Positions 941 through 42,515 of a stretch of DNA of 64,000 nucleotides are shown here, in pieces. The stretch's first letter is position 1. Every line of letters begins with the position of its first letter. Below the pieces are notes generated by a model. It saw nothing but the letters and a program-made list of their open reading frames with translations, was not told the origin of the DNA and made no database searches. Origin of the DNA: Cloeon dipterum. Lineage: Eukaryota; Arthropoda; Insecta; Ephemeroptera; Baetidae. A program made the translations under genes and the position numbers. The DNA lies in NCBI RefSeq assembly GCF_949628265.1, contig NC_088787.1, positions 7,182,501 to 7,246,500 on the forward strand, given 5' to 3'.

Positions 941-1047
941 GCACTTTCAGTTGGCGTTTGTCGCTCTCGCCTGCCGCTCGTGTCCCTGCCGCGCTCGCCG
1001 CCGCCGCCGCATTTTCACTCAGGTCGCCCGCCCGCCCGCCCGCCAGC

Positions 1048-1137
1048 ATGAACGAGACGTTCAACATCTTCACCACCTACTTCATCCTCATGTTCCTGCT
1101 CTTCCTCCTCTGGCTCCTCTACTCGGGCATTTTCTAG
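1048..1137 (+). CDS. Scl: Sarcolamban-like SERCA-regulating micropeptide, 29 aa
   Basis: A small ORF encodes a 29-residue peptide that opens MNETFNIFTTYFILMF and ends YSGIF. It has a short polar N-terminus followed by one hydrophobic helix (about residues 10-29). This matches Drosophila sarcolamban A and B (28-29 aa) in length, in the N-terminal polar stretch followed by FTT, and in the Leu/Phe-rich helix. Sarcolambans sit in the sarcoplasmic reticulum membrane and inhibit the Ca2+ pump SERCA, like vertebrate sarcolipin and phospholamban. The start codon has A at -3. An in-frame upstream extension back to 931 is Ala/Pro/Arg-rich, unlike the family, and is probably 5' UTR. A GTGAGC donor follows at 1155, just after the stop, so the whole ORF fits in one exon. 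Drosophila encodes two such peptides per transcript; I found only one here. Confidence 0.85.
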   Translation: MNETFNIFTTYFILMFLLFLLWLLYSGIF

Positions 1138-1458
1138 ACCCGCCGCCCGCGTATGGTGAGCTTTTGTTTGCTTTGTGGTTTGCCGCCGCCACTCTCTCTC
1201 TCGCAGTAACGCCCGCCTGCTTTTGGTTTCGGGACGAGATTTCCGCTTCGGTTTTATGGATGAACATTCCATTGCAATCGAATGGACTGTAAATCTTTTC
1301 GTGGATAGGGTAATTTTCTAATAAAAACCTTGGAGTGTGTTTTTTTAATAAGAAAACTTAATTGTTAGGGTCGAGAATTTAAAATTTAAAACGGTATATT
1401 TAATAAGGATATTTTATTATCAATTGATTTAGTAGCCGATCTAGATTGTTTTAGACCT

Positions 1459-1900
1459 TTAAAGAGGAATGATACTGGAAAAGCCTGGAAAATGCTTGTT
1501 GCCAATGAATGAACTCATCTCTTAGGATTCAGTTGAAGCCTTAATTGACCTAAGAAGCACTGTAATTTTTTGAGAAAATTGGCTGGAAAGTTAGCGTGCT
1601 TTTCACATGGCAATGGCTGTCTCCTTACTTGAAATCCGATTTAATTTCAAAACCAAGAGTTTGCCCAATAAGTGGCTTACACCGTTGAACAGATCTCGAC
1701 GAGAGGAATCGGAAAATGCCAAGAAAATATGTTCAAGCACTGTAAATTTTGGAGAAAATTGGCAAAATTTGAATTTTTACTATAGGAAGGTCCTTTTTTA
1801 TTATTGCAAATTGTTGAAGGAATTGTTTATCGGTCAATTGTTTAAGGTATCCAACAATTTAAATAATTTTCAATTGTTGCCCAGTATTATTCCACTTTAA
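1459..1900 (+). mobile_element. TTAA-ended MITE, near-complete copy
   Basis: A 442-bp non-autonomous element. It opens TTAAAGAGGAATGATACTGG and closes with the inverted form (ATTCCACTTTAA), giving terminal inverted repeats of about 20 bp. Six other near-complete copies in the window share these ends and an internal block centred on CAGATCTCGACGAGAGGAAT. No transposase is encoded. TTAA at both borders suggests a piggyBac-like target, but TTAA may instead be part of the repeat. It lies in the proposed intron of the sarcolamban transcript. Confidence 0.8.
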
Positions 1901-4403
1901 GAGAATCTTCTTCGCTGTTGCTAGCAATATGTTCTTTCTAAAAATGCGAGATTTAGTAAAATTCAGGTGTTTTCACTCAAGAAAATTAATCAAAATCAGT
2001 CGAAAGCAAGCGTGACCAAATAGGAAAATTCATATTATTTTGTTGAATGAATCAGTGCAATAAACCAATTAAGAAAAGCGCTTTTCTTTTCAAAAGCATT
2101 ATATATTTAAACTGTGGGCTTTTCAGGGGATTAAGATTATTTTTTGTCTTGTTCGGATCGCTCCAAAGAGGGCTTAACAAGGAGAGCGCACCAATATATA
2201 CGAAATAAATTTACAATTTCTTGCTACCATCAAACAGGATATTTCAAAACTTGCCAATACTCGTAGTTTTCAAGCTATGGACGTTAAAATTTTGTATATT
2301 TTCTAGGGCAGTAATAGCTACCAGGTTAAATTTTTAAACCTCAAACATTGACAAAATATTCTGATTTAAAAAAAGGACACGAGCTTGGCGTTAAAATCAC
2401 GGTCTACGAAAATCACGGTCAGCTCGGAAAGATGGGGAAATTTATTTGTCTGTCATATTGCAGAATTTTCCCAATTTCCAGAAAAATACTGTTTTAAAAT
2501 ATTTCGTATTAACACCTGCAAGTTATGCAGCACGCAAAAGAATTTTTAATATAGAGCTTGATTTTATGAAAACTATCGGAAATAAAATTAAACTCTCCTT
2601 CTAAGCCTTTATTTTTTACGGTCGTTTTTCCCCAAGAACACTTTTGTCGGAAAGTTTTGGAAAAATCACGAATTTTCGATTCATCTCGCTGGCTGAGCAG
2701 ATTATAAAATAGTGAAATCCGTTTTGTTTTGAATAAAAATCTTTATTGGATAGATTGTGAAGAATCAGGCAAAAAAATCATTGATAAACCGTTTAATTCT
2801 TTGAGAAATGAGGCAAAATTTGAAATTTCGTTATTTCACATTGCACAAACTACTTGCAAGAGTCAACAAAGCTCTACTTTAAGCGTGCAAATGAGACAAA
2901 ATGAAATTATGTTGAATTCCAATTCCATTTTTAATTCTAGTCTAGATGTTTTACTTTCAACTTTACGAAAGGAAATGCAGCAAAATAAAAATGTGATTTT
3001 GAATGATGAATTTTCAACCTATCACACATATTTAATTTAATTCGTTTATGATTGTGGAATAAAATGCTGCCATGGATTCAATTGAAATTTAAATACCGCC
3101 AGTGAAGGTATTCGCATAAAAATGGCAATATGATGTATGCGTTAAAGCATATTCCGTTTGCAAACATATTCTGCTATAATTAGTTATAATCAGAGTAATA
3201 GAAGGATGATAATAAAATTGTTTAATAAATAGATAACAAACACGCCAACGTACCCTTGGATATATTTTTGATAAATTTATGGGTGACAACAAATGGTGGC
3301 AAAATATAAAAATTTTAGACACTATCTTTTAAACTATTTAAATAAAAACTTCATCAAAAACTGAAATATTAATTACTTGTGGTAAATATAATTTATTTAT
3401 TTAATAAATATAAATTAAAATTAAAAAAATAATAATATAAAATTATTTTTTAATTAATTTAAATAAACAAAAATTAAATAATATTGCAATAAATGTTAAT
3501 AAATTATTACGTTATGTTTTATATTACAAAATTTATTTTGCTATCAGAGCGATAATAAAACAAAAAATGAGAATAATTTGTTAATGAACATAAAAGGCGA
3601 ATTAATAGGATTTCTGTTAAAATATTTGTTAGAAAAATTGAAAATGATTGTCACTCTAGGAAATAATAATGATTGTTTTAAACAATGCTCACCTGTCGCA
3701 CGTTGATTCTTCGTCAACCACAATCAACTCCATTATAAAGGATTCTGATCAGATGTTGACATTTTTTAGGTTTCAATTGAAACCTTTAATACCTGGTGCG
3801 TGTTTTAAAGGTCCCCTGGCGGTGACCCTTTTCACATTTTTTATTTAAAATTTTTAGTTTCTTAAAAACCTCTTGTTGGGAATAAATTATTTGGGATCAT
3901 TGACAAATCTAGTGCCAACAGATTGCCGACAAAAGCTCATCGTCAGGGTGCGTTTTAATATACCGCTTCTTATTTTGATGATCTAAAAAAAAAATTATTT
4001 GTTTGTGAACAAAAAAATCTCAAATTATAAATTGAGTCTGCCAATATATATATTTTTTTGTTTTAAAGCAAGAAGAGACATTTTTGAAAAGGGGAATAAA
4101 CTTAATTTAGTTATTTTTGGACTTTATTTAATCGAATTAATGTTCTATTTTGTTTTTAAAATGTTCAGTTTAATTTTGAACACAGGGAATTTCAAAATTC
4201 TAATAAACACTTTCAAAAATTTTGTCAGAAAATAAAAAAGCGATAATTTTGGCGTACTTGTTCTTCTCCTTTCAAGTTGCAAACATCAATTTTCTATTAA
4301 TATCTCAAGAAACAATTAGCTTCTAGTTCGACTGGCGAACCCTGCTTTCTCGAGTGTTACACGAGTGGAGCGGCACAGAAGTAACGTATTTATGGTGTTG
4401 CAG
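1901..4403 (+). other. Proposed sarcolamban intron, AT-rich
   Basis: This is the larger part of the stretch between the donor at 1155 and a TTGCAG acceptor ending at 4403. It is mostly AT-rich and becomes simple A/T sequence at about 3340-3560. Apart from one unexplained open frame (2708-3040) I see no coding signal. The intron assignment rests on splice-site appearance and gene order. Confidence 0.35.
2708..3040 (+). other. Unrecognised open frame of about 110 codons
   Basis: An uninterrupted frame in AT-rich DNA, which is longer than expected by chance at this composition. The product is polar, rich in Asn, Ser, Lys and Gln, with segments such as KNLYWIDCEESGKK and LRKEMQQNKNVILNDE. The first ATG falls late, at about 2891, and upstream in-frame stops leave no obvious start. 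The AG at 2699-2700 would join out of frame. It may be a decayed transposon ORF, an orphan exon or chance. I recognise no domain. Confidence 0.2.
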
Positions 4404-10414: not shown

Positions 10415-12908
10415 ATGAGGTTGAAAATTGGCCGCCAGTGCTGTGGAAATAATTTTGCGGCGGTTATTTCTTTAAAATTAATTTTAATTCTCTTCTACTT
10501 GACCTTAAAAGAGATTGAAAAGTTGCACACAATGGAGCACAGAAGCAGAGCGGATAAAAAGGTTTATTTTAATTTTAAATTATTTTACATCTAGAAATTT
10601 AAATCAGATTCGTCAAGCTCACCTAAATTATCCTCCACTGGACTGGAATCTGACAAACCCGAATTCTTCGTGCGCCTCTTTCGTGTCTCCGGAGGAAGTT
10701 AAGTACAATAATATTTACTGGCAAGTGCAACAGACGTCGAACGAAAAGTACTACTTGTACGGCGCCTACTTCGACAACAGGACGCAAAGTGGAATCGGGC
10801 CTGCAGTTCGCATTTTGGGAATGAGCGACCGGCTTCTTAGCCAGGAACGAAATATGTTTTGCCAGTTTTGGTTTTCTGGAGAAATAGAACCGTTCTCTTC
10901 GCAAGTGAGAATCCACAAAATCTTTATTCACTTAAATTAAAAAATAAAAGCAACAAGAAATAATTAAACATTTAACACACAATAAAGAGATTATTTTTTG
11001 CAAATTATCTTGGTGATAATTGTTGTATTTTAATTAATATGAAATATTCATCATGACACAGAGCAATACATAAAATATAAAAAATTAGTTTTCGGCTTCG
11101 AGCATAGAAATTTCAATAAACACCATAAAATAAATCTTGAAACGCAGGTTTCGCAATTCACCTACTTATGGGACGTCGGTTGGGACTTCGCGGACCTGAA
11201 GCTGCAGCCGTACCTGATAACGTGTGAGCTCCCTGAGGGGCACAGCCACCTGGTGCCGAGATCCGTGTCGTTGGTGGAGCACCAGTGCGACAACGCCAGC
11301 AACAATCTTCTTGTCGTGCACAATCCGCTGCCCCCCGGCCAGAAAAGGAAGGATTTCGCTGTTTGCGTTAAAGGGCTCTATTTCTATCACCAATCCATGT
11401 ACGCCGTCCGCGTTGCTGAGTACGTCGAACTGCTCAAGATCCTTGGAGCCGAACATATCACTATATACAGATTTCAGGTGGGATTTTTGGAAATTTTAAA
11501 GTAATGAAACTATCAAATAAATTAGGAAACACTATGATTTAAAATTTAAAATTTTATAAACTACCATTTGTCAGCAATGATAGACATATAAAATTCATTA
11601 ATTACTCAAATGTTCGAGTTGAAATAAATAGAAAATAACTCAAACGACATTAATTTCAGGTACACGCCAATATTTCCAAAGTGCTCGATTTTTACGCTTT
11701 AACAGACGTGGCGGTGGACTTAGTTGACACCACGATGCCGGGTCCCTTCGCCAACATACCTGACTTTATGGAAAGGTACTTGAAGGCCCACCCCAGGAAG
11801 CAGTACGTGCAGGAGGTCATTCACTACAACGACTGCATGTACCGACAGCTCGACTTGTTCAACTACTTTGTTCCTATCGACATTGATGAAGTAAGTTTTT
11901 TCTTAATTTCGTTGGATAAGTGGTAACACTGATGCGATACATGAAAGAAAAAATTACGCTGGGGAATTATTGTAATTAAAATGTGTTAAATACGGTATGG
12001 AAATTTAAAAGAAAAAATATTACGTGATTTAAAATATAATTTTGAAGACATTTTTCGTTTTTTTTTTAAATATAAAATATTTTCCAACGTTTCTACGGTG
12101 AATGGATGGACTGATTTTGGTTTTCAGCACGTCAAAAGAAAACATATTAAGTGGAGGATGCATAGTGGCAGGATTGAGTCCGAAATCGCAGCGGCAGTGC
12201 CTTAAAATAAATTTATTATGAAAATGTACGGTAGCGCCATCTGTTAATTTAAAATTTTTCAAACAATATGATTGTCTCTTTAAATAATCCAACAAATTCT
12301 CAACGCTATAATCAAAACTTTAGGATAAGAAAAAATAATTTTTATAATTTTTTAAAGTTCCAATAAATTTGAAATTATTTATTAAAATTTTCAAATTTCA
12401 ATTAAATTTATTTCAGGTGATAATGCCCGTGAGCACAGACAACTGGCACGATCTAGTGTACAAAAAAGCCATCCCAGCCTCTCAAGGACAAAATGTGTCT
12501 GCATTTATAGCAAGAAACGTCTTCCTCGCGGACTCGGAGGTTCCAGAGCACACGGACGTGATTCCGTGGTACATGCACATGCTGCAGAATGTGCGTCGTG
12601 CTCGCAACATCGACCCCGCTGATTATGTTGGAGGTCTTCTGCACCAAAAATCGTTCCACGACGTGCAGAAGGTGCTCACACTCTACAACCACTCTCCACG
12701 GGAGTGCTTCGATAAAAGGTGTAAGGTGCACGTTTTCGAACCTGAAGACGCGTTTCTCCAGCACTACTGCATCGGAAGGACGCGACCTGAGTGCAGAAAC
12801 AATAACCTGACCGTGGACACGACCATTTGGAAGTTTAAGAATGAGCTCATTCGCAATACAAATCGAGTTCTGCGCCGAGTTGGAATTTTGGGTGCAAATA
12901 ATCCCTAA
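10415..12908 (+). CDS. GT92 family glycosyltransferase, copy A (498 aa, 5 exons)
   Basis: Exons 10415-10561, 10608-10904, 11148-11477, 11660-11890 and 12417-12908, all joined in phase 0 at GT..AG borders. Exon 1 encodes a short basic N-terminus and a signal anchor (FAAVISLKLILILFYLTL, about residues 14-31), as expected of a type II Golgi enzyme. The rest matches glycosyltransferase family 92 (DUF23). Landmarks in order are YWQVQQT, CDNASNNL, FAVCVKGLYF, LLKILGAEHI, HYNDCMYRQ and DIDEVIMPVSTDNW. The DxD-type DID is the expected metal and nucleotide-sugar site. The C-terminus keeps the family's NHxPxxC (NHSPREC) and LQHY features. The characterised member is C. elegans GALT-1, a beta-1,4-galactosyltransferase acting on core fucose; the substrate here is unknown. 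All expected motifs are present, so it looks intact. A paralogue follows 780 bp downstream on the same strand. Confidence 0.88.
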
Positions 12909-12969
12909 TTTTTATGACTAACACACTAATCAGAATTAGATCAGAATATTTTTATTATATTTTTTAGTA

Positions 12970-12975
12970 AATAAA
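12970..12975 (+). terminator. Polyadenylation signal of GT92 copy A
   Basis: AATAAA about 60 bp after the stop codon. Confidence 0.6.
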
Positions 12976-12979
12976 TGCA

Positions 12980-13610
12980 TTACATATATAACACTATACA
13001 ATATAATTTATGGTTAAAAAAGTAACATTTAAAAATGTATACTTTAAAAACTAAACTAGCGTTAAAAATTTTATATACATATTTTTATTTTATTTTAAAG
13101 TGTTTTTTCATTTAAGAACTTGTCAATAAATCTTATTAAATATGTTTGGGCATCAATTAAAATTATATTTTATATTAATTTTTGAGTTTTCACGTAACCT
13201 AATAATACTAAACTGCTCATAATTGTTACTTGTGTAGATTTCTTTCAGGTATAAAGATCGTAACTGTGGTAATTCACTCTTTCACCTTAAAACAATTAAA
13301 TAGAATAATACCTCAATAATTTATGCGGCACCAAATAAATTAAACCATCGAAAAATCCAAACGCCCTCGGACAGCCATCAGTCTACGTCTACACGAAGCC
13401 CTTTGTCGTTTTTAGAGCCTTCATTGACCCCATGAGAGCCCACCTCCCCCCACTCCATGTTCGTTATTTTAAATTACAAGGTGATGCATTTTCTGACTTT
13501 TTGCCATTTTTAAAGTTGTTTATACAATTTTTCCTTTGGCCGTCGCAGTAAACGTGAAATAAAAAATTCCTCGTTTTTCTCAGCCCTCGGCCGAAGTTAT
13601 CAAGCGTGTG
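12980..13610. other. Spacer between the two GT92 genes
   Basis: AT-rich first half and more balanced second half. It contains no gene and ends in the promoter of copy B. Confidence 0.5.
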
Positions 13611-13616
13611 TATTTA

Positions 13617-13628
13617 TTTGATAAAAGG
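13617..13628 (+). promoter_or_regulatory. TATA-like/GATA box of GT92 copy B
   Basis: TTTGATAAAAGG about 60 bp upstream of the start codon combines a TATA-like core with a GATA site. A second GATA (GCGATAGCC) follows within 20 bp. The same TTTGATAAA string precedes two of the DUF229 genes. Confidence 0.45.
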
Positions 13629-13687
13629 CACGCCTGCGATAGCCAACTCTTTTTCCTTTTTCCCGAAGCGAGTGTCGATATTCGAGC

Positions 13688-15689
13688 ATGGACATCAGCG
13701 GTCTGTTTGTAAAATCGCAGCGAGGGCCCAATCTCATTTTTTACGTGCTGTTCATCGGCATCACGCTGGTCTTGCTGAATCTGAAAATCCTCTTTCTTCG
13801 ACACTACCTGCGCACGCCGAAACTGAATCTGGACGACACCAATATTTCCACTTCTGACGTGGTACAAAGGGTAAAAATATTTTAAAAAAATTTATATGAT
13901 TATTTCAGTCATAAAAATTAAGAAAATTCTTCAGGCTGAGAGGTCAAACCCGAACGTTCCGTTCGTTCTCTGGAACCGGATGGACCCGCGCGACTTCCGC
14001 GTGAACACCAGTTGCGCTTTGTACGTCACACCGCTGGAAATCAGCTTCAACAATTTGTACTGGCAAGTGCAGCAAACCGTAGATGCGAATTTATATTTTT
14101 TTGGCGCCTACTACGACATACGCCCTTTGGATGGACCAGTTGTGCGCATCTTGGCGACGGTTGACTCGCGCCAGGCAGAGAAGAAATCGCTTTTCTGCCA
14201 GATTTGGTTTGTTGAGACCACGCCGTCTTTTAGCCAGGTGAGATTATTTTTATGAATTTTGTTATAACTGCACTAGACCTTAACCGAGATTTAATTAATA
14301 TTTAAAATTAAAACACGATATGTTCGATTCAATTAATTCGAATTAATGACATTTAGGTTTATAATGAGTAAGGGATAAATTGACAAAGAACATTATAATT
14401 AATTAATCCTGAAAGGTTTAATGTGATTACGATAATTTTAAATTAATAATTATATTTAAAATAACGCTATGTTGGTAATGAAATTAAATTGATAAATAAA
14501 ATATATGAAAGCTAGCTAAAAGTTAATGAATTAGTTGCTTATGTCAAATTTGTCTTTTACTTTCTTCCCTTTTAATTAAAAGGTGTCCTTTCATTACCTT
14601 GGAAATGAAAATTGGGTTGGCAAGGACGTGAGAATGCAGCCGTACATGCTAACATGCAAGTTACCAGCAAATGGAGAGATTCCGAAATCAGTTTCGATTG
14701 TGGCAGACCGTTGTGACAATGCGACAAATAACTTGAAGGTCATCTACAACCAATTGCCTCGAGAAGAGAAGAAAAAGGCATTTGCAGTTTGCGCTAAAAC
14801 GCTATTTTTCGAAAATAGAGATGAAAGTTTCCCGACGAGACTGGTCCAGTGGATGGAAATGCTCAGGATTCTTGGGGCGAGCAATATCTCTTTTTACACG
14901 TTCCAGGTAAAATATTGTAGAATGGCAAAAATATATTCCTAAGAAATTTTAAACACCCCACAGGTTGGTGAAGACGTGAAGAGAGTGTTGAATTATTACC
15001 AGGACACCGGATTTGCTATTATTTTCCCTATCACAATGCCAGGGTCCATCGTGAACGTTCCTGAGCTGCTCGAGATTTACCTGCGGAAGCACCAGCGAGA
15101 ACGAGAGGCCCAGCAATTAATTCACTACAACGACTGTCTCTACAGAAACATGTATTTGTTCGACTACATCGTACCCTTGGACGTCGAAGAAGTAAATTTT
15201 CAATTTTCATTTATTTAAATCTCTCCATTTAGAGAAATTAACTGTTTCCAGTTAATCGTCCCTGTCAGCACAAACTCTTGGCACGAGTTGTTTGCTCTGA
15301 AAACGATTTCGGACGCATCGAATAAATCTTCAGCGTTTTTAACTCACAATAAGAACGTCCTGTACCTTTTAGAAGAAAAAAATGCATCAAATGAGTCTCT
15401 TCGGGATTTTCCACGGCTGCGGAATGAGGAACGCAATGCCATGGCTGAGTTTAAATCCTTCCAAAACACGAAGAAAGTTGTTCTGATGCGCGAACAGGAA
15501 CCCAAAGAGTGCTTCGGTGCTTGTGAAATGTACGTTTTCCGACCGGAAGAAGCGCGACTGCAGCGGTACAAAAGGAGCCTCTCCAGCAAGGCAAATAATG
15601 TGAAGACCGACAAAACACTTGGGAAGTTTAAACATGAGCTGATCGAGAACACGAACAAAGTGTTGAAAAATGTTGGTTTCAGCCCTTGA
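13688..15689 (+). CDS. GT92 family glycosyltransferase-like, copy B (491 aa, 5 exons, altered active site)
   Basis: Exons 13688-13870, 13935-14237, 14583-14906, 14964-15191 and 15252-15689, with the same number and phase-0 junctions as copy A. A signal anchor lies at about residues 16-37 (NLIFYVLFIGITLVLLNL). Shared GT92 landmarks are YWQVQQT, CDNATNNL, FAVCAKTLFF, LRILGASNISFY, HYNDCLYRNM and LIVPVSTNSWHEL. Two things are odd. The acidic metal motif reads DVEEL where copy A has DIDEV. The last exon has also diverged: NHSPREC becomes REQEPKEC, and LQHY becomes LQRY. All reading frames are open, so it is not an obvious pseudogene. It may have changed specificity or lost catalysis. This is inferred from motif comparison only. 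Confidence 0.85.
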
Positions 15690-17111: not shown

Positions 17112-18780
17112 TCAAGGTGGGGTGTTTTTATTTTTCTTATTGACAAAAATAAAATCTAGTGAATTTTTTGAGTGCAGTTTGAACCCGTTTTCATCCATCA
17201 GTTCAAGGATTTCGTCCAGTCGATCAGCTGACTGCGTGTACTCAACTGTCATTGTCTGCAATTAAAAAATTAAAATCTGTTCCCCTGCAAATAATTTTAG
17301 TTAAAAAACCCACCCTGATGAAGAAGCGTTCAAAATCGATGGTGCTCAATATTTCCAGTTCGTGTCCCTCCACGTCAAGGCTGAAGTAGTCGATTGTTGT
17401 TTGGTTCAGGGCGGCCATCAGGGTGTTGAAGGGAATGCACAGCTGGGAGACAAATGACACGTGCGACATGCCAGGTAAATTCATTCCCTGAGGACCGATG
17501 ATGCGTCCCGCGTAAGAATTATCCATGAAGGAAACCTTTAAATTTAAATTAATTTTAAATTTTTTTAATGATTTATTTGTTACAATCATGGAAGAAGTGC
17601 TGGTGCTCATGCACACCGGCGCGAGCCACGCTTTCCTGTTCTTGGTTTTTATTATTTTTGACTCGGTCGGCGACCCTTCCACCAGCAGGCCAGTCCAGTT
17701 GTAGCGTTTCTCCAGCATCAATGTGTTTGAGTCTCTTTCACCGTCCCAAACACCGCACTCGACGAAGAATCCGTTTTTCTGGATTAAAATTTAGTTCAAA
17801 CTTCACCGGCTTATTTTTTATAAGAATTATATTGGAAAGAAAAGTGCACATACATAATGGAATTATTTATTACCCCTCCTTTTTATTTATTATTTTGAGA
17901 TACTGAAGGTTGTTCGTGGTTATATGGCCTAGCTAGGGCTGGATTAGACGATTATATAAAAATATTTTTTTCTCTTTTAGATTTTTTGGCAATTTCAAAC
18001 TCACACCAGTTTATAATTAATTAAAGTAGTATTAAAATCTCCTGCACTTAATTAACTATAGATCCAAAAGCTAAGCTCGTTTAAATAATAGTTAAAAGGG
18101 TTATAGAAACATTTGTATCTCTATTAATTTTCAAAGAATTAACAAAAAATTTATTGGGAGTTTTATCCCTGCTTTTAGGCTTTATGAGTGTAAAAAACAG
18201 TTTTATAAGACAAATTAAACAACAATTTGGTTGATTACCTCTCTTTACCAAATTTTGTAAAAAAAGGAATGAAATAAATACCTTAAAAATACTTATTTAT
18301 ATAAATAAGATTGACAGCCGTTTCCTCAGTCCTCATGAGAAACGTTTTTCATAAAGGTCATGTAAAAAGGTTCTATTTTAATAAATAAATTTACCATTCT
18401 TCCTAATATTGTGTGAATAGTGGAAGCAACTTGGTTTTTTGAGTTATCCTTCTCGGACTCGTTCTCCAGGTTGTACGGAACGCTGCGGCTGCTTGGCTGA
18501 ATTAAAACCCTCGATTTCGTGAATTGAATCAATTCTTCGTCAGTGTCGAAAAGTCTATCCATTTGCTCCACTGAAATTAACATTAATAAATCATTTTGAC
18601 GCTAATTTGTCAATTTAACTTACTCTCTTCAGGAGAAATTGGAGCATCAGGACCGTCTGAAACGTTGCGCCACACATATTTTAGTAGAAAAATTGCACAA
18701 ATAGTTATAAAAATTAAATCCCCGTGTTTCTTCAGTACTTTGAGTGTAAAGAGGGCCATCCTTCTGTTCGTCGTGCCCAT
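17112..18780 (-). CDS. Star-like FkbM-domain methyltransferase, copy A (297 aa, 5 exons)
   Basis: Read on the - strand, the exons are 18780-18624, 18570-18395, 17778-17584, 17535-17314 and 17255-17112. The first junction is phase 1 and the others phase 0. Exon 1 encodes a short cytosolic tail and one membrane helix (DLIFITICAIFLLKYVW, about residues 20-36). Exons 3-5 carry a methyltransferase-21/FkbM fold: GFFVECGVWDGERDSNTL is the expected S-adenosylmethionine-binding region, NWTGLLVEGSPTES follows, and YFSLDVEGHELEIL is the conserved LDVEG motif. The C-terminus ends in a DFIFVNKK strand. This architecture matches arthropod Star-like proteins, type II proteins of the secretory pathway. Drosophila Star escorts the EGF ligand Spitz, but most paralogues have unknown roles and no enzyme activity has been shown for this type. 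A near-identical exon plan recurs in the next gene. Confidence 0.85.
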
Positions 18781-19527: not shown

Positions 19528-20620
19528 TTAATCTTTCATTGTATTATTTTTCTTATTAACAAAAATAAAATCCAGATCATATGTCGATTCCAATTTAAAC
19601 CCGTTTCTTTCCATCAATTTAATTATATCAACCAGCTTATTCGTCGACAGTGTGTGCTCAACTGTCATCGTCTGCAATAAAGAAAAGAAAATATTCTGGA
19701 AAATTTAAAACCATTCCAAAACCCACCCTGATGAAGAAGCGTTCAAAATCGATGGTGCTCAATATTTCCAATTCGTCTCCCTCAACGTCCAGACTGAAAT
19801 AGTCGATTGTTGTTTGGTTCAGGGCAAGCATCAGGGTGTTGAAGGGAATGCAGAGTTGCGTAACAACGTCCGACTTCTTCATCCCCTGCGGACCATAGAT
19901 TCGTCCAGCGAACTTGTTGTCCAGAAAGGAAACCTTTAAATTTATTAAATAAGAAGGAAATTATGAAAATTTTTTTTAAAAAATTACAATCATGGAAGTG
20001 TTATTAGTGCTCATGCACACTGGAGCCACCCACGCTTTTCGATTTTTGGTCAAGATCTTTTTTGACTCGGTTGGCGACCCTTCCACCAGCAAGCCAGTCC
20101 AGTTGTAGTATTTCTCCAGCATCAGAGAGTTTGATTGTTTTTCACCGTCCCACACTCCGCACTCGACAAAGAACCCGTTTTTCTATTTTAAATTTGTTTA
20201 GAGGGGTTAATTGCAAAAAAAAAAATCGTTAAAAATTTGAATCTGTTCACCATTTGGCCTAAGAGTGAATGGATCGTGGAGGCAACTTGGTTTACAGAGT
20301 TGTCCATCCAGTTCTTCTCCTCCAGATTGTATGGAACACTGCGGCTGCTTGGCTCAATCAAAACCCGCGACTTGGTGAACTGCACTAACTTGTCATCAGT
20401 GTCCAGAATTCCAACCATTTCATTTTCTAGATTTTAAAATATGGTAGTAATCAAGAACATACATACAAAATTTATAACACTTACTCTCTTCAGCGGTAAG
20501 TGGATCTTTTGGCCTTTCTGAGCTTCTCCACTCATATATTAGGACGAAAAAAGTGCAAAGAGCAAGTAATATTAATGCTAGATTGCGGAGCTTCCTAAAT
20601 ATATTGAGAACCGCCATCAT
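19528..20620 (-). CDS. Star-like FkbM-domain methyltransferase, copy B (about 285 aa, 5 exons)
   Basis: Exons on the - strand are 20620-20485, 20426-20251, 20182-19988, 19933-19727 and 19671-19528. Exons 2, 3 and 5 have exactly the lengths of those in copy A (176, 195 and 144 nt), so the two are tandem duplicates. The membrane helix is in exon 1 (LALILLALCTFFVLIY). Key motifs are GFFVECGVWDGEKQSNSL, NWTGLLVEGSPTES and YFSLDVEGDELEIL. Exon 4 is five codons shorter than in copy A, in the loop after GRIYGPQGM. I chose the start at 20620 because it aligns with copy A. In-frame ATGs at 20617 and 20659 are alternatives. No break is seen. Confidence 0.83.
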
Positions 20621-20849: not shown

Positions 20850-22033
20850 TTAAGAGGTATCGAGTTTTCTTTTGAGAATTTTAAATTTCTGCTTCAATTC
20901 TTGAGTTTTCTCTTCAATCTTTTTATCAGCTGGCTGATTTTCTTCTTTTCCAGCCGCTTCTAATTTATTAAAACTTGTTCCTAAGCTGTCCATATCTTTG
21001 TAGTCCACAAAATTACTCTCTGATTTCTCATCAACTGATGGGTTTGCGTCGACCGATTTCTGGACTTCCTCCTCGACAATCTTTCCTTGTGTAGTTGTTG
21101 GCACTTGAGCCTTCTCTGCTGATTCCGGTACATTTTTCTCGTCGTCTGAGACTAGCTGAGGGTCTTTGACTTTATCTCCAATTTTCATAAATTTTGTTTG
21201 GTCCTCGTTCTCTTTTTTCTTCATTTTCCCGAATTTTAGTTTAAAATCGACACTGGATTCTGCTTTTTGTTCATCAATTTCTACGTGATCTTCAGCATTT
21301 TTTATGTTGTTCAATGTTTGGTCATGGTATTCTACCTGTTCTTTATCATCATTTTCAATTTTTTGATCGGCGACAAGATCTAAATGTGTTGCATTTTTGT
21401 TTTTATCAACATTTTCTGTGTTATTTTTAGTTTCTTCAACTTTCTGTTCAGCCTTTTCTGATTCTTGTTGCTCTTTATTGACGCTTCCATCATTTTTTAA
21501 GTTTACTTCTTGTTGTTTGGTAGTGTTTTCTTGTGTTTGAGTATTTTCTTCTTCCTGTTTGTCATTGTCATCTTTTTCTGTTTCTTCCACTTCATTTCCA
21601 GCTTCGTCCTTTTTACCCTCTACCTGATCCTCATCGTCCTCCTTTTCTTCTTCTTCAACTTTGTCACCTTTCTCATCCCCCTCTCCACCTTCCTTGTTCT
21701 CCCCTCCATCCTCCTTCTTAGTTTCCACATAGAAAGTACCAGGGTCGATTTGCTCGAGGCTGTTCTTTTTCACCGCTGAATTTCCACCCTCAGAGTTGAA
21801 ATCAAAATCCACAATTTGTTCTTGTTTGGCCGCTAGGGGTTCAGCTGGAAATTCAAATATAAATTATTGCAGACCGTGCATGAAATATTATTTAAAAAAT
21901 TCTTACGTTCATCAGTGGTTGGAACCAGGTCATCTGAAGGTTGGGAAAACCTGTACCAAATGTACAGGGTGGCCGCAGTGGCCAGCAAAGAAACGCCAAT
22001 CGCAGTTTTAAAACGCATTTTAAACGCTCGCAT
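20850..22033 (-). CDS. Single-pass membrane protein with acidic K/E-rich tail (373 aa, 2 exons)
   Basis: Exons on the - strand are 22033-21907 and 21844-20850, joined in phase 1 (GTAAGA donor, TTCCAG acceptor). Exon 1 gives a short basic N-terminus, a membrane helix (TAIGVSLLATAATLYIWY, about residues 10-27) and an acidic stalk ending TTDE. Size, membrane helix, TxxE stalk and phase-1 junction all match exon 1 of the two neighbouring Star-like genes. Exon 2 encodes no methyltransferase. It encodes about 330 residues of low-complexity Glu/Lys/Asp/Asn/Gln sequence, with sequons NTT, NNT and NAT, which fits a lumenal or extracellular side. KEKE-type lumenal tails occur in junctin and triadin, but composition alone does not prove kinship. 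The function is unknown. Disordered acidic proteins evolve fast, so homology searches may fail. Confidence 0.7.
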
Positions 22034-29995: not shown

Positions 29996-32853
29996 TTACA
30001 TCTTGCAAAAGCAGAACAGTATTAAGGAAACATCATTTATGCATGTGGACTGATTCCCGTATTCGTTCAACCTATTCACATCTCCGAGAAGTCTAGCCTT
30101 GTTGCCGTTGATTTCTAGAGTTCCCTCCAGTATTGCGTTCGAAGGTTTAACAGTAATCATGATTCTTAATATTTTCGATCTATTATCGAACTGTCCAACT
30201 GCCTGAGTTGGCAACAGTTTTTGTGCTCCTTCGATATTTTTCAGCTTCAAACGAGAACACAGCTTTTCCTTGTCTCTTTTTTCCAATATGTTGTTTAAAA
30301 GGGTTACAAATTGGTAGGCGCCTATTTTTGTGTTTGTTTCAATAACATTCAGCTCTTTTTCGATCCAGCAAACACAGTAGACAATAGGAATCCCAATTTC
30401 CAGGCAGGTTCTGTTGCTGGGAATCGGCCTGAAGAGAGACAAGCCCTTGAAACCGTGGCGACGCACTTTGGATTCCGTCTCGAGGTTGTTCATGGCCACA
30501 TCGAGCAGCGTTTCTCGTACGTCATGCCAGCTCGTCAGGACTTTCGCGTTCGCCTCCAGAGCTTGCCGGAAATGCTCCAGCGAAGGAGGAATCATGATTG
30601 CTAGATTCGGCATTCGATCTTCTACCCTGCCGATGGCAGTGCGTCTCGCATCGCCAAATCGGTTGCCATGGTCCCCCATGATGAGCATGACGCTGTTGTT
30701 GAAGATGTTGTGCATCTCAAGGTCTTGCAACAGTTTTAGCAAATCGTCATCAGCTACCTGAAAGGATTTAAAATTAAAAAATCATGTTGAAATTCTCGCT
30801 GCATCAAGCTTATTCTAAGGCACTGGGAAATTGTTAAACAAAAGAGATGATTTTAATAAAAATTAAAACGTCTTCTTAATTTTTTTCAACAATTATTCTA
30901 CACCTGACAGTTTTAGGGGGCTGCAATTATTTTACCTCCCCCACTTGTGCATGTGCTCGTGCCCCCTGTGCTCACCCCCACTGGCTTCTTCATTTACAAG
31001 TCATATTTTTTTTTTAACTAAAATGCTAAGAATTTATGATTGAGTCCCACCTGCACGGAGTTGATGTGGTCGTGACTTAAAGGAGTTGAAAAAGTGAGGG
31101 AGAAGAATGCGCAGCCCTCCTTTTGCATTTTCACCGCGAAGTCCCTCGTGTAATTGAAGAGAAACATGTGCTTGGGAAGGTGTCCATAGCATCTTCTATC
31201 TGATTTTAAGTCCTGGCGACCCACGGTGAACTGTTCCATGGCTTGCCAAAACGGTCTCATGACATAGTCGGTCTGAGGCACGTGAAAACCACGCTCTTTG
31301 AAACTAAATGTGTCGACATCAGGTTGATCCTCTGCGAACATCGTCACGTAACCATGCTCGGAAAAATATTTCCAGGCAATGGGGAGCAGGTAATTATCGA
31401 ATTTCCCTGTTGTATCCTGCCAAAATGGTCCTTGGGATTCATCAGCGCCGCCTTCTGCACCATCGGAGTAACCGCTGAGAAAGGCCAGCATGTTCGGATA
31501 GGTGTTGTCCCCCACCTTCAAGTAAAAATTAAAATATAAATAAATCATTTAAAAGTTGTTTTGAATAAATAATGCACAATTGTATGGAAATAATTTAAAT
31601 CTTCATTAATATCTGAGAAAAATTATTCTAACATTTTCATGCTGATTAAACGGCGGGAATTGTTTCTCATTAAAAAAGGTATGCGAATTATTTAGCTAGG
31701 AAGAAAATTCCTCGTAATTCGCAAATCATATCTCTTCTACACACGTGCAATAATTAATACCTTTGTGAGACCTTCCAATACAATGCCCTTGGCGCGTTCT
31801 GTGATAAACTTGCTTGTCTTTGGCAATTGTCGAATGAAATTCAGCCTGGATGTAGAGTCAAGCACGAAAATTAGAACGTTGACACTATTATTATTAAACG
31901 CTGCTTTTCCTCTCTTTGGCACCTCCTTGACTTTCGCATACCCAGTTGCATAAATCTTGACTCCAGTTGATTCCAATTTACAATTTACAAAATTGAATTC
32001 GTATGGAAGCCGCTCAGCTTCAGTAATTTTCTGTAAATATTAAAATTATATAAGTTTTTTATTCTTTAACAGCTCTATATTGATGCATGTAGGGTTGGGA
32101 TTTTTTAGACAATTTTTTTTTGTTTATTTTGTGGACTGTTTTTAGTCTACCAAATGATTAATCTCTTTTGTACTATGTATTTCGTTGTCTCGAAAAATTT
32201 AGTTTTTAGGAATCGTCGGGAATTCCAGTACAATATATGTAAATCTTTACTTGATTTTTTATTAAAAAAATAGTAATCTGTCTTGAATTTCCTACCCTGC
32301 AACGTTGATTTGGTGGTTATGTTAATGTTTATTGAAAAATAGATTTATACCTTTGCTGGGCCAAATTTGACCTTTGATTCATCATTTTTCAGTTGAGTAA
32401 CTTCATGTATGTAGCAGGACAGGCGCCCGATCAACGAAACAGCTGTTTTGTTAATTTGTAAAAGTTCGTTTTCGTCCAAAAAAGTGAGTGGGGGCTGTTT
32501 TCTCTCGCAGATAATCCTCGGCCAGGTCTGGATGTGTGGTAGAATCGACGGGTCGAAGGGATCATATTCAGGCAAATTACAAAATGTTGTGTTGCTATCT
32601 GTTTGATTTTCTGACTGTGAAAGGTATTCCTCTTTCTCATTCTCTTCGGATTTCCGGAACGCAAAAATTAATAAATACGCTGACATCACCACAGAAAGCA
32701 GTTTGCGGGAACGCCTCAACCGAAACAATCCCTGGAAATAGAAAATAGTATGAAAATAAATAATGGTGTTATGCGATAAATATTAGAATAAATTTTGGCA
32801 AGCATTTTTTGCAAATTAGTAATTAATTACAGAATCAAAAACCTTCCAACCAT
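29996..32853 (-). CDS. DUF229 protein, tandem copy 1 (about 626 aa)
   Basis: Exons on the - strand are 32731-32351, 32030-31761, 31515-31051 and 30757-29996, all in phase 0. A proposed exon 1 ends with the ATG at 32853-32851. The product starts with basic residues and a membrane anchor (LLSVVMSAYLLIFAF), then the DUF229 domain of the alkaline-phosphatase/sulfatase-like superfamily. Landmarks are NVLIFVLDSTSRLNF (metal and nucleophile region), VGDNTYPNMLAFLSGYSD, FFSLTFSTPLSHDHIN, LIMGDHGNRFGDAR (the metal-binding DHG) and SNRTCLEIGIPIVYCVC. About 600 residues is usual for the family. Substrates are unknown in animals, and a lumenal or extracellular hydrolase is inferred. The frame of exon 2 excludes simple read-through from the upstream ATG, so the start depends on an intron placed directly behind the ATG. 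Confidence 0.8.
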
Positions 32854-32924
32854 TTTCGTTCGACCTGCAGTGCTTGAGTGCTTTTCAAGGTAGACCCTCA
32901 CAAGCGCAATCAGTACAACCCATG

Positions 32925-32933
32925 TTTATCAAA
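32925..32933 (-). promoter_or_regulatory. TATA-like/GATA box of DUF229 copy 1
   Basis: TTTGATAAA on the - strand, about 72 bp upstream of the first ATG. It is followed by GCGCTTGTGAGGGTCTACCT, which is shared with copy 2. Confidence 0.45.
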
Positions 32934-33426
32934 TGCCCCCAAGACTCGTCACCAATGCTTGCGTGAAACAGGAAAAAACAGTTCTAACTCCAACACGAAC
33001 GCTCTGGCCAATAAAAGCAGTAAACAAAAATATAAAAAATATTTAATATGTATTTGCAAGAAAAATAAAATAAAACAATGACTGTGCACTGCTGTTATTT
33101 GTTAGTTGTAATAAACTTTTATTCTATTTTCCGTGTGTATTGAAAAAATATCTCGTTTTGATATTTCAGATTGTTTTACTAAAGTTATTGAGTTTAAAGA
33201 ATTTTTATTTTACTTAAACCATTTAATTGGAGAATTCGCCAAAAGGAAAAAGCCTTCGATGTTTGGAGTCACTGACTGATGGCATTACTGTTCATGTACA
33301 GCTTTTGGGTACTGCAATTTTTTGTTTTAATCTTGCTACTGTTTATTCATGGCGTTAAAATAATTGATTCGACGTGCTGGAATAAAAAAAATCGGATCAG
33401 TCAATCGCGGTAAAAACGGTAGCTTA

Positions 33427-33560
33427 TATCCCGACGAGAGGAATCTGCCAAGAAAATGTGGTCAAGCGCTGTGTGAATATTGGAGAAAATTTGGACTAGT
33501 GCAATTTTAAGAACAAATTCTTTATCCATAAACAACTCCTTTTTGCATCAAGGATAAATT
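33427..33560 (+). mobile_element. Remnant of a TTAA-type MITE
   Basis: CCCGACGAGAGGAATCTGCC and GCCAAGAAAATGTGGTCAAG match the interior of the MITE family, but both ends are gone. A homologous remnant sits at the same relative position upstream of DUF229 copy 2, so it was present before that duplication. Confidence 0.5.
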
Positions 33561-34080
33561 ATTTTCAACTGGATTATTTGTAAGTTTTAACTAAAATTGT
33601 GAGAACGGATTTTATTTGATATTAAAATTTATTAATAAAAATAATCAAACAATGAAAACTCGCACATATCATATTGTTCTTCGCAATTATAGCTGACACT
33701 GAAATTGCAAGGAAATTCCCCCATAAACTCCTTGATGTCGACATTGTTCACTCGAGATAAGAGAATATTATTCGTACAAAATGAATAATGAAGAGATTAA
33801 TAAAAATGATAAAATTCATATCTCTATCCCTGAATGACTTCATTGTCCACTATAATCACAAGCTTTTACCTCTTATAGACATATATACAATTGATTTCAG
33901 CTACAGACATGAAATTTTTTTCTTACATCTGAGGAATGGGCTAATTTAATTGGTGTATTTTATGCATAAAGAATGATTGTCAAATAATAATAAGAATTCC
34001 TTGAGCACCACCAAAAGAGGTAAATCCGTTTCTTACTTTCTGGAGCTACCAAACCAATATGGCGAGAAAGATAACGCGTT
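33561..34080. other. Spacer between DUF229 copies 1 and 2
   Basis: AT-rich. The part from about 33930, including GAGCACCACCAAAAG, recurs near 38550 before copy 3. It therefore belongs to the duplicated unit. Confidence 0.5.
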
Positions 34081-34085
34081 ATCAA

Positions 34086-37000
34086 TTAGTACATCTTGCA
34101 AAAGCAGAACAGTTTTAAGGAAGCAACATTGATGCATCTGGACTGTATCCCGTATTCGTCCAACCTGTTAACATCTCCAAGCAGTCTAGCCTTGTTGCTG
34201 TTGATTTCTAGAGTTCCCTCCAGTATTGCGTTCGAAGGTTTAACAGAAATCATGATTCTTAATATTTTCGAACTATTATCAAACTGTCCAACGGCTTGAG
34301 TCGGCAACAGTTTTTGTGCTCCTTCGATATTTTTCAGCTTCAAACGAGAACACAGCTTTTCCTTGTCTCTTTTTTCCAATATGTTGTTTAAAAGGGTTAC
34401 AAATTGGTAGGCACCTATTTTTGTGTTTGTTTCAAGAACATTCAGCTCTTTTTCGATCCAGCAAACACAGTAGACAATAGGAATCCCAATTTCCAGGCAG
34501 GTTCTGTTGCTGGGAATCGGCCTGAAGAGAGACAAGCCCTTGAAACCGTGGCGACGCACTTTGGATTCCGTCTCGAGGTTGTTCATGGCCACATCGAGCA
34601 GCGTTTCTCGTACGTCATGCCAGCTCGTCAGGACTTTTGCATTCGCCTCCAGAGCTCGCCGGAAATGCTCCAGAGAAGGAGGAATCATGATTGCTAGATT
34701 CGGCATTCGATCCTCTACCCTGCCGATGGCAGTGCGTCTCGCATCGCCGAATCGGTTGCCATGGTCTCCCATGATGAGCACGACGGTGTTGTTGAAGATG
34801 TTGTGCATCTCAAGGTCTTGCAACAATTTTAGCAAATCGTCATCAGCTACCTGCAAGGATTGAAAATTAGGAAATTTATAATTGTTGCGAATTATCCCCT
34901 AAAATATACTGGTCGTACACTCTACTAAGACTTTTATCACATCAAAACCAAAAAAGACACTAAAAAAATTGGACGACCAACTATTTAAAGTAATTTTCTC
35001 ATACAAACCTAATAATGGCACTTAAAAATTTTAAATTTTCAAGTCCGATGCCAAGAATTTTATGATAAAATCACAAACCTGCACGGAGTTGATGTAGTCG
35101 TGACTTAAAGGAGTTGAAAAAGTGAGGGAGAAGAATGCGCGGCCCTCCTTTTGCATTTTCACCGCGAAGTCCCTTGTGTAATTGAAGAGAAACATATGCT
35201 TGGGAAGGTGTCCATAGCATCTCGTATCTAAGGTATTGCGGCCTGTCATGAACTGTTCCATGGCTTGCCAAAACGGCCTCATCACGTAGTCAGTCGGAGG
35301 CACGTGAAAACCACGATCTTTGAAGCTAAAGGTGTCGACATCAGGTTGATCTTCTGCGAACATGGTCACGTATCCTTGCTCGGAAAAATATTTCCAGGTA
35401 ATTGGGAATCGCCCTGTTGCGTCCTGCCTAAACGGTCCTTGGGATTCATCAGCACCGCCTGCACTATCAGAGTAGCCGCTGAGAAAGGCCAGCATGTTCG
35501 GATAGGTGTTGTCCCCCACCTTCAAGGAAAACAATTATAATCCGTTTGCATTTTTTTATGCTGTGCAATGATTGGGAAATAGCTCAAATTGTCTTATTTC
35601 CCTTTTTGATTTCTGCGAAAAAGGACTCAATAGTTTTCATGCACTGTTTTCTCATTAAATAATTAAATGGTTAATTTTACCAGCAAGGAACTTTCCATGT
35701 AATTTGCAAAAAAAAAATAGAGATTGTGACAAGAACAATTGAAATCAAGCAGAAAAAAATTTACGAGAAACATGGTCCTGATTTGATTTTTGGTGATTGT
35801 AGAGATCCATTGAAAATATAATAAATTTAAACGGACCACTACTTATAGAGCTATTCAATTTTTGGCCCTTCTACACATGTGCAATAATTAATACCTTTGT
35901 AAGACCTTCCAATACAATGCCCTTGGCGCGCTCTTTGATAAACTTGCTTGTCTTTGGCAATTGTCGGATGAAATTCAGCCTGGATGTAGAGTCGAGCACG
36001 AAAATTAGAACGTTGACTGTGTTATTATTATTCGCTGCCGTTCTTCTCTTTGGCTCGATATTCGGCACTTCTTTGACTTTCGCATACCCAGTTGCATAAA
36101 TCTGGGCTCTAGAAGGTTCCAGTTTACAATTTACAAAATTGAATTCGTAAGGGAGGCGCTCAGGTTTAGTAATTTTCTGAAATTATGTAAATTATGTAAA
36201 TTTTTTTATCTTTTATCAGCTCTAAATTGATGCATAAGTTTAAGATATTCAGAAAGTGTTTATTTTTTATTTTTCATTATTTGAAGGAATGTTTTAGTTC
36301 CATCAAATGCTAAGTTACCTTTTATAATTACATTTCTGTAAATTTAATATACTATTTTACTAGAGTTAAACATTTTTTGCTTTCCGGCTAAATAGCCAAT
36401 GTTATCTTGGGAATTATTTATAGAAATTAAATTAGAAGGAAGATCACAATTTGCTAAATTTTCCTTTAATGATTCAAGCAACAAAGTGGTTATTGTTTAC
36501 AGGTGCAAAAAACTAAAGAAATATAAACATCGTCTGGAAATATGAATTTTAGTTAAAAAATCATTACACCAATTAAAGGGCCATTTATACGGATCTTTAA
36601 TTGGTGTGTCATAAAAGTAAAACGTTTTTGAAAATTTGATTAATGAATAAATATCGAACCAATTCATACAAAACAGTCATGATTTTTATTGAAAAAACGA
36701 AAACTAGCTTCGATTAACTGTCTGGGATCTCAAAACAACATAGAGAAAAAGACCTATTGTTATAGGATATTTCAGTAAAATACCAACCCTATGCTGCAGA
36801 TTTTGTAGCTCTTTTTAGTGAAAAATTTACTTCATACCTTTGCTGGACCAAGTTTGACCTTGGATTCGTCATTTTTCAGCTGAATAACTTCACGTATGTA
36901 GCAGGAAAGGTGACCTATCAACGAAGCAGCTGTTTTGTTAACATGTAAAAGTTCGTTTTCGTCTAAAAAAGTGAGTGGGAGCTGTTTTCCCCTGCAGTTA

Positions 37001-37334
37001 ATCCTCGGCCACGTCTTGATGTGCGGTAAAATCGACGGGTCGAAAGGATCATAGTCAGGCAAATTACAAAATGTTGTGTTGCTATCTGTTTGATTTTTTG
37101 AGTGTGAGTGGTATTCATTTTTTTCATTCTCTTGTAATTGCCGGAACGCAAAAATTAATAAAAATGCTGACATCACTACAGAAAGCAGTTGGCGGGAACG
37201 CCTCAACCGAAACAACCCCTGGAAATAGAAAATAGTTTGAAATTCAATAATGATAGCAGTTCGAAAAATATCAGAATAAATGTTGCCTTGCTCTCGAAAT
37301 GCAACTTGGAGAATGAAAAACCAATTCCAACCAT
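34086..37334 (-). CDS. DUF229 protein, tandem copy 2 (about 623 aa)
   Basis: Exons on the - strand are 37218-36838, 36176-35895, 35519-35079 and 34850-34086. A proposed exon 1 ends with the ATG at 37334-37332. Structure and phases match copy 1, with the anchor LLSVVMSAFLLIFAF and the landmarks NVLIFVLDSTSRLNF, VGDNTYPNMLAFLSGYSD, LIMGDHGNRFGDAR and RTCLEIGIPIVYCVC. Exon 4 is eight codons shorter than in copy 1 and reads MTGRNTLDTRCYGH where copies 1 and 3 read VGRQDLKSDRRCYGH. Exon 3 carries a four-residue insertion shared with copy 3. No break is seen, so it appears functional. Confidence 0.8.
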
Positions 37335-37412
37335 TTTCGGTCGACCTGCAGTGCGTGAGTGCTTGTCAAGGTAGACCCTCACAAGCGCAATCAGGAAAGT
37401 GTGCAACCCATA

Positions 37413-37421
37413 TTTATCAAA
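37413..37421 (-). promoter_or_regulatory. TATA-like/GATA box of DUF229 copy 2
   Basis: TTTGATAAA on the - strand, about 80 bp upstream of the first ATG. Further GATA sites (TTATCTTTTATCTG on the - strand) lie just upstream. Confidence 0.45.
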
Positions 37422-37899
37422 TACCGCAAGACTTGCGTGAAACAGATAAAAGAAAAAAATAATAAAACAGTTATAACGCTGAACAAATAATGCACTACTC
37501 CAACACGAACGCACTGGCCAATAAAAGCTATACACAAAAATCACAAAAAATTATTGTACATTCATTTGCAGGAAAAATAAAATAAAACAATATGCATTAC
37601 TGCTACTTGTTTGTTGTTATGAACTTTTATTCTATTTTCTATGTGACTTTTAAAATTACTCGTGGAATTTTCAGATTTTTTTTTAAACGATTTAATTGGA
37701 GTATTCGCCAAAATTCGATATTTGGAGTCACTAAAACTGATGGCGTGACCCTTCATTTACAGATTTTGAGTACTGCAATTTTTTTAATTTTGATCGTGCA
37801 ACTGTTTATTCATGGCGTTAACATATTGATTTGACGAACTGGAATAAATAAAAAAAAATCGGATCAGTCAATCGCGGTAAAAAAAACGATAGCCTAGAT

Positions 37900-38100
37900 C
37901 CCGACGAGAGGAATTAAAATTTGCCAAGAAAATGTGGGCAAGCGATGTAAATTTTGGAGCATATTGGAAAAATTTGGATTCATTTTTTATTGTTGCAAAT
38001 TGTAGAACAAAATATGTATTGTTTTTATCGGTCAACAAACGCTTATGTATTGCATCAAGCATCAAACAATTCAAATAATTTTCAATTAATGCATTTATAA
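37900..38100 (+). mobile_element. Remnant of a TTAA-type MITE
   Basis: CCCGACGAGAGGAATTAAAA, GCCAAGAAAATGTGGGCAAG and AATTCAAATAATTTTCAATT align with the interior and right part of the MITE. It is the counterpart of the remnant at 33427. Confidence 0.5.
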
Positions 38101-38645
38101 GTTTAAACTAAAATTGTGATAGTGGATTTTATGCATTTTAGAATTAAATTAAAAAAACGATAAAAATGAGTTATTACTTCTGCACGAATCTAATTTTTAA
38201 GTTATATCCTTCGCCAATATAACTGATACTGAAATTGAAAGGAAATTCCCAATACGCTCCTTGATGTTGACATTGTTCTTGCGAGATAAGATAATGTTAT
38301 TGGTACAAAATATAGAAGGAAGAGATGAACAAAAATTATAAAATTCCAATCTCTAACTCTTAAATGTTTTCATTTTCCACTAATCGCAATCTTTCACATC
38401 TTTTAGGCATTTATACAATTGGTGTTAACAAACGGCATGGAAAATATTTCAAATTTCTGAGTATTGGGCTTAATTTAATTGGTGTATTTTTTGCACACAA
38501 AAGAGTCCAAAATTGTCAAAAAATAATTAGTGTTCTTTGAGCACCACCAAAAGTGGTGTCCGTTTCTTACTTCTTTCAAAACCAATACAAAATTTTTTCA
38601 ACCGTTGAATTTGCACAATAAAATGGCGAGAAAGATAATTGGAGT
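38101..38645. other. Spacer between DUF229 copies 2 and 3
   Basis: AT-rich and homologous in blocks to 33600-34080. No gene. Confidence 0.5.
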
Positions 38646-38650
38646 TTGAA

Positions 38651-41600: not shown

Positions 41601-42431
41601 GTCGTCTGGAAATTTGAATTTTAGGGAAAATATCACTAAACCAATTAAAGGGCCATTTATACGGATCTTTGATTGGTGTTTCATAAAAGTCAACCTTTTT
41701 TGAAATTTTGATTCCTGAATAAATGTCGAACCAATAAACACCAAATATTTGCGATTTTTATTGAAAAAAAGAAAATTAGCTTCGATTAGCTGTCCGCCCG
41801 GGATCTCAAAACATTATATAGAGAAAAGAACCTATTGTTATAGGATTTATGAGTAAAATATCAACCCTATGCTGCAGATTTGGTAGCTCTTTTTAGTGAA
41901 AAATGCTCTTCATACCTTTGCTGGGCCGAGTTTGACCTTGGATTCGTCATTTTTCAGTTGAATGATTTCCTGTATATAGCAGGACAGGCCTCCGATCAAC
42001 GAAACAGCTGTTGTGTTAATTTGTAAAAGCTCGTTTTCGTCCAAAAAAGTGAGTGGGAGCTGTTTTCCCCCACAGTTAATCCTCGGCCACGTCTTGATGT
42101 GCGGTAGAATGGACGGGTCGAAGGGATCATAGTCAGGCAAATTGCAAAATGCTGTTTTCTTATCAGTTTGATTTTTTGAGTGTGAAAGGTATTCTTTCTC
42201 AATCTCTTGGGATTGCCGGAACGCAAAAATTAATAAAAATGCTGACATCACCACTAGAAGCAGTTTGCGGGAACGCCTCAACCGAAACAACCCCTGGAAA
42301 TACAAAAGATTATGAAATATAATAATGATATATAGCAGTTCGAAAAATATCAGAATAAATTTTAGCTTGCTCTCGAAACGCAAGCATTTTTTTAAATTAC
42401 AACTTAGAGAACAAAAACCAAATCCAACCAT
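38651..42431 (-). CDS. DUF229 protein, tandem copy 3 (about 624 aa)
   Basis: Exons on the - strand are 42293-41916, 40809-40528, 40308-39862 and 39415-38651. A proposed exon 1 ends with the ATG at 42431-42429. All family landmarks are kept (NVLIFVLDSTSRLNF, VGDNTYPNMLALLSGYSD, LIMGDHGNRIGDAR, RTCLEIGIPIVYCVC). Exon 2 is one codon shorter than in the other copies. Part of exon 4 resembles copy 1 (VGRQDLKSDRRCYGH) while other parts resemble copy 2 (DATGRFPITWK, VPPTDY), suggesting past gene conversion. The intron between exons 2 and 3 is enlarged by a complete MITE at 40989-41430. The frame is intact. Confidence 0.8.
40989..41430 (-). mobile_element. TTAA-ended MITE in an intron of DUF229 copy 3
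   Basis: A complete 442-bp reverse copy with TTAAAGTGGAATGATACTGG and ATTCCTCTTTAA at its ends. The homologous introns of copies 1 and 2 lack it, so it arrived after the copies separated. Confidence 0.85.
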
Positions 42432-42515
42432 TTCGCTCGACGTTCCGTGCTTGAGTGCTTATCAAGAAAGCCCATCAAATGCGGTGTTTAATTACTAAAG
42501 GAAGTGCCATTAAAA

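Follow-up and report, generated by a model that had tools for sequence, protein, structure and literature searches.

A 29-codon open reading frame of the insect Cloeon dipterum as a very probable and apparently single-copy sarcolamban gene

Introduction

Sarcolambans belong to the regulins, as stated in PMC8396278. In Drosophila, the sarcolamban (Scl) peptides are described in PMC9338278 as lowering the activity of SERCA and as being located in the ER and outer nuclear membranes. According to the same paper, loss of Scl impairs the calcium transients and leads to arrhythmia, and the luminal end of the peptides is cleaved by Nep4. The Drosophila gene is bicistronic and its peptides are redundant (PMC11475943). 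No paper on sarcolamban copy number across insects was found among the publications, judged by their titles and the openings of their abstracts.

In the present study, a stretch of 64,000 nucleotides of Cloeon dipterum (contig NC_088787.1, positions 7,182,501 to 7,246,500; hereafter the window) has been analysed, for which an original prediction had proposed an insect sarcolamban micropeptide near the beginning. It is very probable that this open reading frame (ORF) is the sarcolamban gene of the insect, apparently its sole copy, and that it gives a SERCA-regulating peptide; its transcription, translation, membrane insertion and the binding and inhibition of SERCA would follow by analogy with the described members of the family.

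Results and Discussion

Open reading frame and encoded peptide

The ORF was found with exactly the bounds and the length that had been predicted (Table 1). Its reading frame is intact and encodes MNETFNIFTTYFILMFLLFLLWLLYSGIF. Of the FTT motif and the Leu/Phe-rich helix, which had also been put forward, FTT was recovered at residues 8-10 and a hydrophobic stretch from residue 11. The Kyte-Doolittle mean over 19 residues is 2.32 for the window peptide (from residue 11), in comparison to 2.57 for Drosophila SclA and 2.38 for SclB. From hydropathy alone we infer a single C-terminal transmembrane helix, and by analogy the N-terminal head of the peptide is expected on the cytoplasmic side. The second codon position carries T in 18 of the 29 codons, which is the expectation for a membrane helix, and the third position carries C or G in 28 of them.

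Table 1. Coordinates of the sarcolamban ORF and of the candidate transcript features around it (window positions).
Feature	Position	Strand	Remarks
Candidate initiator TCAGTT	947-952	+	Identified by eye
Sarcolamban ORF	1048-1137	+	29 codons followed by TAG stop (1135-1137); PF21898 match
N-terminal head, MNE....FTT signature (residues 1-10)	1048-1077	+	M1, E3, F8, T9 and T10 invariant in comparison to Drosophila SclA and SclB
Predicted transmembrane helix core (residues 11-25, YFILMFLLFLLWLLY)	1078-1122	+	Best 19-residue hydropathy stretch begins at residue 11
Candidate 5' splice site GTGAGC (ATG/GTGAGC, junction 1155/1156)	1156-1161	+	8.5 bits; 18 bases from the stop codon
Candidate poly(A) signal AATAAA (1320-1325) followed by GU-rich tract GTGTGTTTTTTT (1335-1346)	1320-1346	+	Rival to splicing at 1156

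Comparison with the fly and vertebrate peptides

A close relative of the window peptide is Drosophila SclB, with which it has 55% identity in the alignment and shares the length of 29 residues, the MNE start, FTT, the C-terminal F and the one hydrophobic helix. The differences lie in the luminal end, which is WLLYSGIF here and YAFYEAAF in SclB as printed in PMC9338278, and in the partner peptide, for which no counterpart has been found in this genome. With SclA the identity is 50%, and FTT as well as N at position 6 are common to both peptides, whereas SclA has 28 residues and the luminal end YLIYAVL (PMC9338278). Twelve columns, including M1, E3 and FTT, are invariant among the window peptide, SclA and SclB. 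If the family role holds, the peptide would also resemble vertebrate sarcolipin (SLN) in being a single-helix regulator of SERCA. The luminal WLL is common to the window peptide and to SLN (WLLVRSYQY in PMC9338278), a likeness noticed by eye and without statistical support. A phmmer search of the window peptide against the PDB chains gave no match at E up to 10, a search that has little power for short helices.

Assignment to the sarcolamban family

In a Pfam-A scan of the 29-residue peptide, the sole family obtained was PF21898 (Sarcolamban), with 31.3 bits and an E-value of 1.7e-7, the match covering model positions 1-26 of 28. The curated cut-off of this family is 27 bits, so the peptide stands only about 4 bits above it. 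When PF21898 was searched against the whole 190-Mb genome, the window ORF was the sole match (29 bits, E 2.8e-4). Among 14 prokaryote genomes used as controls at E up to 10, two had matches below the cut-off and none had a match above it.

SclA and SclB, which served as reference sequences, score 68.8 and 65.4 bits respectively under PF21898, and PMC9338278 shows the same luminal ends for them. BLASTP of the window peptide gave 14/26 identities with SclA (E 3e-8 as a single comparison), and with SclB alone it aligned the first 13 residues only (E 0.004, again as a single comparison). In the whole-genome searches the single fly peptides reach the window ORF at E 0.285 (SclA) and 0.0535 (SclB), which is below genome-wide significance, and hence the family profile is required. 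A two-sequence profile made from SclA and SclB was searched against 214 kb around the locus, consisting of the window and 15 further stretches (the SERCA locus being left out) with 7071 stop-to-stop segments of at least 20 residues; it gave the window ORF 27.1 bits (E 1.1e-6), with the next best segment at 11.2 bits. A complete ORF of 28-29 residues with an N-terminal E and FTT, features which we take from the two fly peptides to define the family, is found in full in the window peptide.

It may be argued that a hydrophobic ORF has arisen by chance in a GC-rich promoter and is sarcolamban-like by accident. The peptide is short and rich in Leu and Phe, GC content is 0.60-0.65 across 751-1200 around the ORF, and other frames over it are open too, with a segment of 126 amino acids on the plus strand and one of 100 amino acids on the minus strand. 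Such an origin is exceedingly improbable in view of the whole-genome E-value of PF21898 and of the shuffling experiments. When the residues were shuffled with the composition preserved, the ungapped score was not attained in any of 200,000 trials, either against SclA or against SclB. The non-hydrophobic head (M, E, FTT) matches as well, and when residues 2-10 and 11-29 were shuffled apart, as high a score was obtained once in 200,000 for SclA and never in 200,000 for SclB; scored by the SclA and SclB profile, 0 of 20,000 such separately shuffled peptides were as good.

A second reading would be that of a sarcolamban copy which has lately lost its function or is losing it, the functional version being absent from the assembly. 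The PF21898 score of the window peptide is indeed far under the scores of the fly peptides; however, its reading frame is intact and no other copy has been found in the genome through protein, family or DNA search, due to which we consider a dying copy very unlikely.

The curated profile, the whole-genome search, the identities to the fly peptides and the shuffle controls thus bear out the proposal of an insect sarcolamban micropeptide. Judged from its sequence, the window ORF is real and represents an ordinary ortholog within a micropeptide family that is already known. The proposal that standard annotation would miss it is less well supported, since the sarcolamban family is present in Pfam and an annotation that takes account of families could detect the ORF.

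Copy number of sarcolamban in the genome

The window peptide, PF21898, SclA and SclB each gave one match as whole-genome queries, all in the identical place, and by DNA search the sequence of 880-1340 occurs once in the genome. No second sarcolamban ORF was detected at E up to 10 in six-frame searches of the whole genome with PF21898, SclA, SclB and the peptide, searches which are blind to ORFs that are split by introns, much more diverged or removed by the first-pass filter. A second copy at a comparable distance would probably appear among the matches with E up to 10, because the SclA and SclB searches reach the window ORF itself at the E-values given above. The claim of a single visible sarcolamban accordingly holds within the limits of the six-frame search.

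It can further be asked whether the gene has the bicistronic organization known from Drosophila, with a second peptide that lies on a downstream exon and escapes notice because it is too diverged or is split by an intron. This arrangement is compatible with the sarcolamban assignment. The strong donor past the stop codon suggests more exons, and ORFs broken by introns escape six-frame searches; on the other hand, none of the four queries has a second match in the genome, and no second Scl ORF was found by the SclA and SclB profile in the 214 kb around the locus. The ten local runner-ups in this region (E up to 5) do not combine the head and the helix in any case, and the best of them (L011, the minus-strand segment with 11.2 bits) matches the head only. 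On balance, a second peptide of this kind appears improbable, and the preferred reading remains that of a single-peptide sarcolamban gene.

The pattern M-x-E-xxx-F-T-T-[FY] gave three matches genome-wide, all of which were rejected; its spacing is one codon short of that of the family, so the window ORF itself is unmatchable and the result says little. The first match contains a stop within the motif and the second has polar sequence after the motif. In the third (L027, 27 residues), charged residues are followed by a terminal run of only about ten hydrophobic ones.

Transcript features around the open reading frame

The ATGs present in 700-1060 are those at 727, 820, 899, 914 and 1048. If transcription starts at the candidate initiator, the ATG at 1048 would be the first of the mRNA. 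The possibility that AT-rich sequence at 902-915 serves this initiator as a TATA box was dropped, since by the usual TATA-initiator spacing it lies too far upstream. A sigma-70 and terminator scan was disregarded because its consensuses are bacterial.

Behind the stop codon, the strong donor of the original prediction is present. With a generic weight matrix, 21 of the 63,991 plus-strand positions score at least as high, the donor itself included. The donor fits a gene in which one exon holds all of the coding sequence and the later exons are non-coding. The description of the ORF as a self-contained coding exon is nevertheless weaker than had been proposed, as the donor is a predicted one and the poly(A) signal competes with it. 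Cleavage after the signal at 1320 would plausibly give an mRNA of some 400 bases without splicing. AATAAA or ATTAAA occurs 20 times in 1138-4000, the copy at 1320 being one of these occurrences, which makes this poly(A) candidate weak.

The window contains 46 MEF2-type sites (consensus YTAWWWWTAR), whereas 100 shuffles had 23 on average, and the excess perhaps reflects just AT-rich tracts. None of these sites lies within the ORF or upstream of it inside the window. As the first of them is at 3174 and there are so many in the window, no argument about the promoter can be drawn from them.

SERCA as the expected target

The genome contains the expected target with well-conserved pump exons. A SERCA gene with five exon matches is located on the same contig as the sarcolamban ORF, about 1.5 Mb away (contig positions 5680600-5686838, minus strand). 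The TIGR01116 model has 13 matches genome-wide, none of which reaches the whole-protein cut-off as the exons were scored singly; five of these matches are at the SERCA locus and the three strongest are among those five. Two of the five contain stops, which are taken to be intron sequence.

The groove of SERCA that binds sarcolipin and phospholamban is formed by M2, M6 and M9. A 172-residue piece aligns over 171 residues with the solved SERCA1 (335 bits), and the M6 stretch is identical. The M9 piece matches SERCA2 as well as SERCA1, and its two tryptophans are in register with theirs; the second one corresponds to chain position 932 of SERCA1. The M2 piece matches SERCA with 254 bits and has one residue as L here and F in the solved SERCA2 (FVEPL vs FVEPF). 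A further piece, which falls at 955-989 of the chain and was assigned to M10 on this ground, matches SERCA too.

In the proposed mechanism, translation from the first ATG of the mRNA would give a peptide of 29 residues with one helix, located in the sarcoplasmic reticulum. Its helix may then sit in the intramembrane groove of SERCA between M2, M6 and M9, in the way that vertebrate sarcolipin and phospholamban do, and the SERCA-bound peptide would lower the calcium uptake in muscle and heart.

Other features of the window and the genome

Just downstream of the sarcolamban ORF, at 1458-1900, lies an interspersed repeat some 440 bases long. Six more copies of 417-448 bases with 89-93% identity are present in the window (e.g. 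40989-41430, 53826-54267 and 62598-63041), besides four shorter and weaker matches. The region 29996-42458 (minus strand) apparently holds a DUF229 (PF02995) gene that is present three times in tandem. In the first copy, matches to PF02995 were obtained for two segments (E 1.2e-42 and 1.6e-36), and the second and third copies were judged by their closely similar translations, the segment 36832-37365 of the second copy having no DUF229 match.

On the plus strand, 10509-15689 probably contains two adjacent genes of glycosyltransferase family 92, with exons seen in the six-frame translation; among three segments compared with PF01697, one is above the cut-off, one is below it and one has no match. 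An FkbM methyltransferase (PF05050) exon is found above cut-off at 17242-17790 (minus strand), and the translation of 19658-19960 (minus strand) is very similar to it. At 20850-21863 (minus strand) there is an open segment of 337 residues with a high content of E, K, D and Q, for which Pfam gave nothing at E-values up to 0.01. The odorant-receptor family PF02949, which is not known outside insects, has at least five exon matches in the genome, all above the cut-off and one of them with three internal stops, as would be expected of a winged insect with few such receptors. A search for COX1 gave a single short fragment, which scores below the cut-off and is interrupted by stops.

Implications

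This study leaves the knowledge of the sarcolamban family itself unchanged, and its value lies in an intact and apparently single-copy insect sarcolamban that could help to date the duplication behind the fly pair. It can tentatively be suggested that ancestral insects had a single sarcolamban and that the two-peptide transcript of Drosophila is the result of a later tandem duplication, the one-peptide state being preserved here together with a luminal end (WLLY) that is nearer to vertebrate sarcolipin than the luminal ends of SclA and SclB are. With other insect orders surveyed, the apparent single copy would inform how old the Drosophila pair is. Moreover, the window peptide is a natural variant which can be used to ask which helix and luminal residues matter in the control of SERCA.
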